Below, piece after piece: positions 45,686-47,491 of a stretch of DNA of 64,000 bases. Both the position numbers and the translations under genes were made by a program. This DNA comes from Pseudomonas sp. NC02 (GTDB taxonomy: Bacteria > Pseudomonadota > Gammaproteobacteria > Pseudomonadales > Pseudomonadaceae), in the NCBI RefSeq assembly GCF_002874965.1, contig NZ_CP025624.1, forward strand, positions 5,270,001-5,334,000, read 5' to 3'. Every line of letters starts with the position of its first letter. The first letter of the stretch is position 1. Below the pieces are notes generated by a model, which did no database searches, was not told the origin of the DNA, and saw nothing but the letters and a program-made list of their open reading frames with translations.

Positions 45686-46714
45686 ATGACTCCCAAGAAC
45701 GATAAAAATACCCGCACCACGGGCCGCCCTACCCTCAATGAAGTGGCCCGCCTGGCTGGCGTGAGCCCGATTACCGCCTCCCGGGCCTTGCGCGGCATCA
45801 GCACCGTGGCCACCGAACTGGTGGAAAAAGTGCAAAAAGCCGCCGCCGAACTGAGCTACGTGGTCAACCCCGCCGCCCGTGCCCTGGCATCTGCCCAGAG
45901 CCAGTCGGTGGTGGTGTTGGTGCCGTCGCTGTCCAACCTGCTGTTTATCGAAACCCTGGAAGCCATCCACCAGGTGCTGCGGCCCAAGGGCTTTGAAGTG
46001 CTGATCGGCAACACCCACTATTCCCGCGACGAAGAAGAAGACCTGCTGCGCAACTACATGGCCTACCAGCCACGGGGTTTGCTGCTGACCGGGTTTGACC
46101 GTACGGAAAGTGCCCGGCGCATGGTGGAATCGAGCAACGTGCCGTGTGTGTACATGATGGACCTGGACCCGGGCGCCGGACTGAACTGCGTAGGATTTTC
46201 GCAGTTGAACGCCGGGGAAACAGCGGCGGCGCATTTGATCTCACGGGGGCGCAAGCGGTTGGCCTACATTGGCGCTCAGTTGGACCAGCGCACGTTGTTG
46301 CGCGGTGAGGGTTTCAGGCGCGCTCTGCAACAGGCGGGGTTGTATGACCCTGCGCTGGAAGTGTTGACGCCACGGCCATCGTCGCTGGGCCTGGGTGGTG
46401 AATTGTTCCTGCAGTTGCTGGCCAGCCATCCGGATGTGGACGCGATCTTCTTTGGCAACGACGACCTGGCTCAAGGTGCGCTGCTGGAAGCGCTGCGCCA
46501 TGGCATCAAGGTGCCGGAGCAGATCTCGGTGCTGGGCTTCAACGACCTGCCGTCTTCCTCGTTCATGGTGCCGCGTTTGAGCAGCATCAGCACCCCGCGT
46601 GAAGCCATTGGCCGGCGGGCAGCCGAGCATTTGTTGACGGTGATGGCCGGCAACAAGATCGCCCGGCCGGTGGTGGACATGGGGTTTGAGTTGAAGGTGC
46701 GCGAGAGTACCTAG
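45686..46714 (+). CDS. gntR: LacI-family gluconate repressor
   Basis: The ATG at 45686 gives 342 residues; a TTG five codons upstream is less likely. The LacI HTH lies at residues 15-65 (RPTLNEVARLAGVSPITASRALRGISTV with the hinge LSYVVNPAARALA). The periplasmic-binding-like effector domain follows. The divergent gntK-gntT genes and the three operator-like sites identify it as the gluconate regulator, repressing until gluconate or 6-phosphogluconate is present. Confidence 0.92.
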   Translation: MTPKNDKNTRTTGRPTLNEVARLAGVSPITASRALRGISTVATELVEKVQKAAAELSYVVNPAARALASAQSQSVVVLVPSLSNLLFIETLEAIHQVLRPKGFEVLIGNTHYSRDEEEDLLRNYMAYQPRGLLLTGFDRTESARRMVESSNVPCVYMMDLDPGAGLNCVGFSQLNAGETAAAHLISRGRKRLAYIGAQLDQRTLLRGEGFRRALQQAGLYDPALEVLTPRPSSLGLGGELFLQLLASHPDVDAIFFGNDDLAQGALLEALRHGIKVPEQISVLGFNDLPSSSFMVPRLSSISTPREAIGRRAAEHLLTVMAGNKIARPVVDMGFELKVREST

Positions 46715-46721
46715 GCGGTAG

Positions 46722-46772
46722 CTGTAGGAAGTGGCTGGTGTTGATGGCAGCGCCTTGCTCCGTTACCTACAG
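46722..46772 (+). other. Hairpin downstream of gntR
   Basis: CTGTAGG (46722-46728) and CCTACAG (46766-46772) form a perfect 7-bp stem with a 37-base loop just after the gntR stop. It lacks a T tract and may be a stabilising hairpin rather than a terminator. Confidence 0.4.
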
Positions 46773-46819
46773 GTACGTCAGAATCCGCCGGCTTGTGCGC
46801 CTGGGTAGGGCTCTCTAAG

Positions 46820-47041
46820 GTTGCCCGGTCGCTGAATTTCTCAGTGATCGGGTTTAGTAGCCCGAGCAACCCCTCACAAATGTGCATGAGCTTCATCTAT
46901 CGGACTTACCTGTCTGTGCTTGATGGTGGCTGTGCGCAGGGCGCCCTCGTGGCGCGCCGGGTTTTGTGAGGGTCTACCGGTCTACTAACCTGCGTGCAGC
47001 CGCCACCCTTTCGTTTAGTAGCGATCAGGTGGTGGCCCAGT
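46820..47041 (+). ncRNA. Candidate structured leader RNA upstream of DUF6124-like gene
   Basis: No gene covers 46715-47055. The + strand can form: hairpin A, a 12-bp stem 46824-46835/46841-46852 with two G-U pairs; hairpin B, a long-range 16-bp stem 46925-46940/46989-47007 with a U-G and a G-U pair and a 3-base bulge, enclosing a 5-bp hairpin at 46941-46955; and hairpin C, a 9-bp stem 46999-47007/47028-47036 with one G-U pair, capped by TCG/CGA and the loop TTTAGTAG. All wobbles favour the + strand. B and C compete for 46999-47007. The element ends 20 bases before the next ATG. Confidence 0.55.
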
Positions 47042-47055
47042 TAGAGAACTCACCT

Positions 47056-47292
47056 ATGTTCAAAGCAACTCCAAATCCTCCCGCCTTATTCACCGTCAGC
47101 CCCGACGCCAGCAGCGAAAGCCTGATCGCCAACAGCTACGAGACGTTTTCCTCGGTCAGCACGTTATTGCTCGACCTGTCTGATGAACTCACCGGCAAAG
47201 ACCGCGACACCGCATTGGCGATTCACCAGTTGAGTGAGTTGGGCGTATTGCTGATGGGCAAGCTGATGGACCAGGAATCACCACTGATCTAA
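47056..47292 (+). CDS. Small DUF6124/DUF3077-like protein
   Basis: The 78-residue product begins MFKATPNPPALFTVSPDASSE and continues with a helical half (SLIANSYETFSSVSTLLLDLSDELTG...AIHQLSELGVLLMGKLMD). It belongs to a family of short pseudomonad proteins (I recall DUF3077/DUF6124) with no known function. The ribosome-binding region (TTAGAGAAC) is weak. It lies directly behind a structured, gene-free stretch, suggesting leader control. A REP doublet follows. Confidence 0.75.
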   Translation: MFKATPNPPALFTVSPDASSESLIANSYETFSSVSTLLLDLSDELTGKDRDTALAIHQLSELGVLLMGKLMDQESPLI

Positions 47293-47312
47293 CAGACCGC
47301 ACGCGGTCAAAC

Positions 47313-47401
47313 TGTGGGAGCGGGCTTGCTCGCGAATGCGGTGTGTCAGCCGAGCTTTCCATCACTGATACACCGCATTCGCGAGCAAGCCCGCTCCCAC
47401 A
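47313..47401. repeat. REP doublet, GCGGGCTTGCTCGCG type
   Basis: Arms match those at 1401, 27561 and 37516. It lies 20 bp after the DUF6124-like stop and could end or stabilise that transcript. Confidence 0.9.
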
Positions 47402-47491
47402 TTTTTGATCCTGCCCACTTAACAACCTCGCCGTGCCTTCTGGCCCCTGCTAAATTGCCCCCTGCCTTCTCACCCTCGTCAGGAAAGCACC

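Follow-up and report, generated by a model that had tools for sequence, protein, structure and literature searches.

A predicted chromosomal, multi-copy C4 antisense RNA coupled to DUF6124 genes in Pseudomonas

The closest described relatives of the RNA analyzed here come from phages P1 and P7 and from Acinetobacter baumannii; RNAs of the C4 type were discovered through phage P1 immunity. The phage P1 record, which together with PMC5320573 is the source of the facts on this phage used below, annotates the order a1, b1, c4, a2, b2, icd, ant. In the sections of PMC5320573 drawn on here, 21 similar small RNAs of A. baumannii AB5075 (Group 1 sRNAs) are described as homologous to C4, and a GGW motif is described for the C4 RNAs of P1/P7 and A. 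baumannii. A further element, the c4-a1b1 motif (RF03163), is tabulated by Weinberg et al. 2010 (PMC2864571). The subject of this analysis is a gene-free stretch on the + strand (positions 46820–47041) within a 64,000-nt window, i.e. the whole stretch of DNA analyzed, of Pseudomonas sp. NC02 (NZ_CP025624.1, positions 5,270,001–5,334,000).

Identity and layout of the leader

The gene-free stretch consists of two neighboring Rfam elements, both on the + strand (Table 1). The model of the C4 antisense RNA (RF01695) is matched over its full length (positions 1–87) with a score of 71.4 bits against the cut-off of 45 (E 6e-12 for the whole window). The RF03163 match falls short by score (43.5 bits, under the gathering cut-off of 46.7; E 1.3e-9 in 801 nt), yet is correctly positioned ahead of C4; the same cut-off is passed in 8 of the 19 sister loci of the genome and missed by the window locus. 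Judged by its fit to the covariance model, the window locus is a member of RF01695, namely, a chromosomal, multi-copy, DUF6124-coupled version of the C4 antisense RNA. A riboswitch or another Rfam family can be set aside because C4 alone passes its cut-off in the window. The initial annotation, which recognized no named Rfam family in this stretch, was mistaken on this point; its suggestion that the gene at 47056 is controlled by a leader RNA or a small RNA fits what the sequence shows. The RNA looks like both at once, an antisense RNA located inside the leader of the gene that it appears to address.

Table 1. Features of the window cassette, in window positions
Feature	Position	Strand	Basis
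Promoter-like pair TTGTGC (46793–46798) / TAAGGT (46816–46821), 17-nt spacing	46793..46821	+	inferred
c4-a1b1 target motif, with hairpin A (46823–46853) and a small hairpin holding a1	46815..46868	+	RF03163
a1 = GUUUAGUAG, complement of a'	46852..46860	+	sequence, own-versus-other test; label from the P1 annotation
b1 = CCCUCACAAA, 10 bp with loop b'	46871..46880	+	RNAduplex, -16.5 kcal/mol
Leader segment predicted to pair with the P1 5' strand in the alternative fold	46881..46897	+	minimum-energy fold, masking
C4 antisense RNA	46919..47010	+	RF01695
GGU on the P1 5' side, expected place of RNase P cleavage	46925..46927	+	sequence; GGW motif of PMC5320573
b' = P3 loop GUUUUGUGAGGGUCUA, pairs with b2 and b1	46961..46976	+	fold, RNAduplex
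a' = CUACUAA, single-stranded between P3 and P1	46982..46988	+	pairing comparison, fold
a2 = GUUUAGUAG, immediately 3' of C4	47013..47021	+	sequence
Mimic of the P1 5' strand, GGUGGUGGC, can pair with the P1 3' strand	47028..47036	+	family-wide permutation test
b2 = UAGAGAACUCAC, contains Shine-Dalgarno-like AGAGAA; pairing with b' interrupted	47042..47053	+	RNAduplex, -13.6 kcal/mol, internal loops
DUF6124 gene, 78 aa, presumed regulated gene	47056..47292	+	PF19619, E 3e-24

All the stems drawn in the initial annotation are present and find a place in these two elements. Hairpin A, described as a 12-bp stem, has 13 bp and is the hairpin of the a1b1 element; stem B, given as 16 bp, is P1 of C4, with 17 bp (46924–46940 with 46989–47005); the inner hairpin (46941–46955) is P2. 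What had been missed is P3 (46956–46960 with 46977–46981, closing a 16-nt loop) and the fact that the P3 loop and the strand that follows it are complementary both to the Shine-Dalgarno region of the downstream gene and to an upstream copy of this target. In the isolated C4 RNA, fold prediction and alignment agree that P1, P2 and P3 form, with loop b' and strand a' left free. The covariation check proposed for the stems yields two-sided changes in 18 of the 24 predicted pairs, in an alignment of 33 C4s that comprises the 19 of the own genome, 13 of the 26 loci from other genera and phage P1. As regards strand preference, the + strand folds at -109 kcal/mol (z -6.4) and the - strand at -89.7 kcal/mol (z -4.9), with 0 of 200 shuffles as good in either case, so that the + strand is favored but the - strand is not unstructured.

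The gene downstream is DUF6124-like, as had been noted. In the set of 119 cassettes compiled for comparison (L035 was left out as short and L109, L041 and L112 as duplicates, and L110 ends a few bases off), the position of the promoter-like pair is moderately conserved, the 76 cassettes that can be anchored giving the consensus Ttg..c followed by ta...t immediately ahead of the a1 hairpin; a generic scan finds no sigma-70 promoter. The first bases of the RF03163 match (CUAGUCU, 46815–46821) overlap the conserved -10-like box and might therefore represent promoter DNA, not RNA. No intrinsic terminator is found in 46700–47480. Beyond the gene, a REP-like inverted pair (GTGGGAGCGGGCTTGCTCGCGAA) lies at 47314–47400, with four exact pairs in the window; microRNA Rfam matches at 47299–47400 are below their cut-offs, fall on this palindrome and are rejected. 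The six neighboring genes that were scanned encode a GntP permease, an AAA-domain kinase-like protein, a LacI-type regulator, a GST, an epimerase and a transporter, none of them a phage gene.

Copies, addresses and alternative folds

The own genome (G000; 6.89 Mb, one contig) contains 19 C4s over the cut-off; judged by eye, each of them has a small ORF behind it and an a1/a2 match, the a2 of L010 being decayed. In L007 (G000:C1:474663-474749), the DUF6124 copy is apparently frameshifted near its start, and C4 and the target sites seem intact. Across the genus, C4 is matched (E 0.001) in 54 of the 59 Pseudomonas genomes, including the own genome, with 53 over the cut-off, and in none of the 14 control genomes. 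The 59 genomes hold at least 1005 C4 matches and 696 DUF6124 matches, with a median of 17 C4s. The number of candidates scored per genome is capped at 61 in the genus search and 15 in the class search, so that high counts are lower bounds (15 in the class search versus 19 for the own genome, and 54 in the genus search versus 55 for a second Pseudomonas genome, G049). The C4 and DUF6124 counts per genome are correlated (rho 0.88, n = 59): all five C4-free genomes also lack DUF6124, and seven genomes have C4 and no DUF6124. In the sample of the class, C4 occurs in 18 of the 274 genomes, including the own genome, with one to six copies in each of the other 17, and DUF6124 is found in the own genome only. 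The related loci carry Pseudomonas organism names. Among phage records, one, EU982300, covers the C4 DNA well, and two plasmid matches cover 17% of the query. In EU982300 (Pseudomonas phage DVM-2008, L156), a prophage record from P. fluorescens Q8r1-96, C4 lies at the edge, is 83% identical over 98% of the query and is located ~50 nt ahead of a small hypothetical gene.

In the window, a' and b' are complementary to a2 and b2 at the ribosome-binding site of the following gene, with 7 bp for a'/a2. Inspection by eye indicates that loop b' often combines a UUCCU-like anti-Shine-Dalgarno sequence with variable bases and that a' is variable. The addresses are diverse: the 19 loci of G000 have 11 different a' hexamers and 19 different b' loops, and the 51 loci of G049 have 27 and 51, respectively; parsing of a'/b' failed in 6 of the 119 cassettes (4 of the 55 in G049), hence these sample sizes in the pairing tests. 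For a'/a2, b'/b2, a'/a1 and b'/b1 alike, the pairing of each locus with itself exceeds all 10,000 permutations in both genomes. Among named genomes, 32 distinct loops give the same outcome for b'/b2 and b'/b1, and 20 of them rank their own b2 first, with the qualification that, G049 excepted, the loci from other Pseudomonas genomes are among the best-scoring and, therefore, biased toward strong matches, and that the pattern used for this comparison missed L159.

When targets are ranked by run score, with ties counted as first, the own target comes first in 13 of 19 (G000) and 41 of 51 (G049) loci for a'/a2, 16/19 and 28/51 for b'/b2, 15/19 and 33/51 for a'/a1, and 13/19 and only 11/51 for b'/b1. 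The pairing exceeds 95% of the shuffles of the own target in 17/19 and 50/51 loci, respectively, for a'/a2, 16/19 and 38/51 for b'/b2, 15/19 and 41/51 for a'/a1, and just 7/19 and 16/51 for b'/b1. With a2 and b2 summed, the own target scores above all others in 17 of 19 (G000) and 41 of 51 (G049) loci; the exceptions are L010 and the window locus in G000, and 10 of 51 in G049. The contiguous score of the window locus is 29.5 for its own target versus 30.5 for the best other, the b'/b2 pairing being interrupted. The P1-strand mimic also pairs better with its own stem than when swapped (matched or bettered by 22 of 10,000 permutations in G000 and by 1 of 10,000 in G049).

The chromosomal place of the window locus, which is 96% identical in Pseudomonas sp. 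K2I15, is represented by four sequences (window, L158, L159 and L160) with three different b' loops, and b1 and b2 differ alongside. For every b', the strongest partners are the b1 and b2 of its own sequence, the window and L158 sharing a loop and tying. The margin is small for the window (b' with its own b2 at -13.6 kcal/mol versus -13.0 and -12.5 with those of the relatives), compared with L159 (-17.0 versus -11.9 or weaker) and L160 (-13.9 versus -7.1 or weaker). This joint change of b1, b' and b2 at a single locus is the best single piece of evidence.

The upstream copies of the target appear to bear on the fold of the uncut RNA. At equilibrium, to which all fold probabilities given here refer and from which co-transcriptional folding may differ, the mean probability of the P1 stem is 0.98 in isolated C4 and 0.57 with the real flanks on both sides (119 cassettes), and it is below 0.5 in 47 of the 119 cassettes with both flanks and in 35 with the leader alone. 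In the control with simple shuffles, run on 60 of the 119 cassettes, values below 0.5 are obtained for 22 of 60 with real flanks versus 0 of 60 with shuffled ones. When leaders are swapped within the own genome, the own leader unfolds the stem (<0.5) in 6 of 19 loci, the window included, compared with 6 of 342 combinations with foreign leaders, and 0 of 10,000 permutations are as low as the own leaders. In the window, the probability drops from 0.99 for C4 alone to 0.03 or less with its own leader; masking a1, b1 or 46881–46897 returns it to 0.98, and masking hairpin A does not restore it. By these predictions, the upstream a1/b1 mimic can unfold the uncut C4 in the window and in some of the sisters, which would give the precursor two states. 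The leader of phage P1 leaves its C4 folded (0.92 for the P1 stem), so self-sequestration is not general.

The two competing folds of the uncut window leader, and the ability of the 3' strand of the P1 stem to pair with the mimic ahead of the gene, would also suit a leader that acts in cis alone, as a riboswitch-like or attenuator switch in which C4 is never a free RNA. Such a mode of action is quite unlikely, given that the leader alone is predicted to switch the fold in just 6 of the 19 sisters, that a' and b' match the own gene for the set as a whole, and that, according to the sections of PMC5320573 used here, processing takes place in the C4 RNA of P1/P7 and apparently also in that of A. 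baumannii.

The genes behind C4

A DUF6124/DUF3077 gene is located on the same strand within 600 nt of C4 in 16 of the 19 cases in G000 and 40 of the 55 in G049 (52 of these 55 over the cut-off), where the chance of such a gene per C4 is 0.08% and 0.2%, respectively. Conversely, 16 of 18 and 40 of 46 DUF6124/DUF3077 genes of these two genomes have a C4, and the C4 pattern stands in front of 79 of the 80 DUF6124 loci of named Pseudomonas genomes that are nearest to the protein of the window. The exception, L211 of P. syringae PA-4-7F, is at the same chromosomal place as the window locus and keeps the a1 hairpin and the gene, with no C4 between them. At G005:C1:3628473-3630323, three DUF6124 matches with identical scores follow in a row with a spacing of ~800–850 nt and are probably recent tandem copies.

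An ORF is found in the expected place in 108 of the 119 cassettes and in none of the other 11. These ORFs fall into a cluster of 71 that includes the DUF6124 and DUF3077 proteins, a cluster of 15 proteins of 52–57 aa, a cluster of 10 whose scanned members (L001, L006 and L090) match no Pfam family, and a cluster of eight in which both scanned members (L053 and L082) contain Bro-N; the remaining four are single, at least two of them by choice of the wrong frame, as in at least L005 and L098. C4 precedes the Bro-N genes L053 and L082 as well as L026, which clusters with them, and L082 opens with the DUF6124-like MIKVTPNPP before Bro-N. L132, which belongs to a different genus within the class, has an AntA antirepressor behind its C4.

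The DUF6124 protein is modeled as a helical hairpin (helices 20–44 and 47–73, mean pLDDT 83, pTM 0.64). It has no significant match among solved structures by sequence (best E 0.16), no match by fold at E ≤0.001 in BFVD or PDB, a helical hairpin being matched by many folds at chance, and no match in PADLOC. DUF6124 and DUF3077 are related by hhalign (probability 75%, E 2.5e-5), and hhalign finds nothing between DUF6124 and Icd, the Bro-N set, the 52–57 aa set or the L001-type set. Among phage families, DUF6124 weakly matches phrog_6327 (E 0.083); the DUF3077 protein of the sister locus L002 has a clearer match, phrog_36471 (E 4.8e-10), and matches no phage record by tblastn. No study of DUF6124 emerges from the literature search, and DUF3077 is mentioned once, in passing, as mutated in a furfural-tolerant P. 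putida.

The cluster with the two Bro-N members, which accounts for 8 of the 108 C4-preceded ORFs, invites the idea that chromosomal C4 RNAs target invading phages or other mRNAs and that the adjacent gene is incidental. The member L026 of that cluster matches 449 phage records, the best 10 of which are annotated as antirepressors; C4 itself is a phage immunity RNA, and, in the sections of PMC5320573 used here, Weiss et al. suggest such a role in A. baumannii. This possibility is nevertheless quite unlikely because, in comparisons that cover the targets beside the C4s, the address and the adjacent target associate and change together, the pattern that selection on the adjacent gene as target would produce. 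The least probable reading is a prophage relic without present function, to which the damaged-looking copies (the frameshifted gene of L007, the lost C4 of L211 and the decayed target of L010) and the C4 at the edge of the P. fluorescens prophage record EU982300 could be attributed, but stem and address changes preserve pairing, the copies are many, the six neighbors are non-phage, and the DUF6124 protein of the window is unmatched in 50,697 phage records (tblastn, E 0.01).

Proposed mechanism and comparison with known systems

The best reading, and a highly probable one, is that a processed C4 RNA represses the adjacent DUF6124 gene, with transcription, cleavage and repression modeled on P1 and A. 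baumannii. One transcript would begin just 5' of hairpin A and run in the order a1-b1-C4-a2-b2-gene; its C4 portion would fold into P1, P2 and P3 and be excised by RNase P, by analogy with P1 and Acinetobacter. In the free C4 RNA, a' would pair with a2, and b' with b2 across the Shine-Dalgarno sequence of the DUF6124 mRNA, and this pairing would hold translation off. The upstream a1/b1 would serve as a target mimic able to unfold the uncut C4 in the window locus and some of its sisters. As the address (a', b') is largely private to each locus, the copies would act mainly on themselves. The identity of the element, its layout, the private complementarity, the joint change and the alternative fold are established by sequence and computation; transcription, RNase P cleavage, repression and the role of the two states are inferred.

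A broader scenario can be put forward tentatively. Pseudomonas might have taken over an RNA of phage superinfection immunity and built from it an array of tens of antisense switches, largely insulated, on the chromosome. Each switch would carry a private address of two parts and, upstream, a mimic of its own target; the mimic could keep the uncut antisense RNA inactive until RNase P cleavage arms it. At least four small-protein families, unrelated to each other, might have become coupled to this module. The layout also fits a type I toxin-antitoxin system, with an antisense RNA against a toxic small protein, toxicity of DUF6124 being hypothetical. Under the proposed mechanism, the unannotated leader gains a name and a putative mode of action, and the DUF6124/DUF3077 families gain a regulatory context. 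These genomes contain many such self-addressed cassettes, which makes their specificity directly testable: dozens of naturally matched antisense/target pairs per cell form a set for asking what difference in address insulates RNA regulators and are also a potential source of orthogonal RNA parts.

Many C4 copies per chromosome are already known from A. baumannii; the coupling to DUF6124 and the joint change of address and target were not found in print, and, in the texts covered, the literature search brings up no link between C4 and DUF6124 and no account of a multiplied C4 in Pseudomonas. The c4-a1b1 motif (RF03163) has hairpin A and a1 in common with the window, at a score below its cut-off. 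The Group 1 RNAs of A. baumannii AB5075 resemble the Pseudomonas cassettes in their many C4-like chromosomal copies and variable a' loop, and are expressed and apparently processed; in contrast, the account of them in the sections of PMC5320573 used here describes no adjacent target, DUF6124 or address-target matching, and reports little similarity of region 1 to the upstream sequence of P1. The likeness to the C4 of P1/P7 (immI) extends to the RNA fold, the order of sites, the a' strand and b' loop, the location of b2 at the Shine-Dalgarno sequence, the downstream mimic of the P1 stem and the promoter before a1 (promoter-like in the window), and the best reading is that the window locus works like the C4 of P1. 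It is not a P1-type immunity locus because the icd/ant antirepressor is absent behind C4; DUF6124, with no detectable sequence relation to Icd, replaces icd-ant there. Further differences from immI are that the window cassette is chromosomal and present in many copies, and that the leader is predicted to unfold C4 in the window but not in phage P1.
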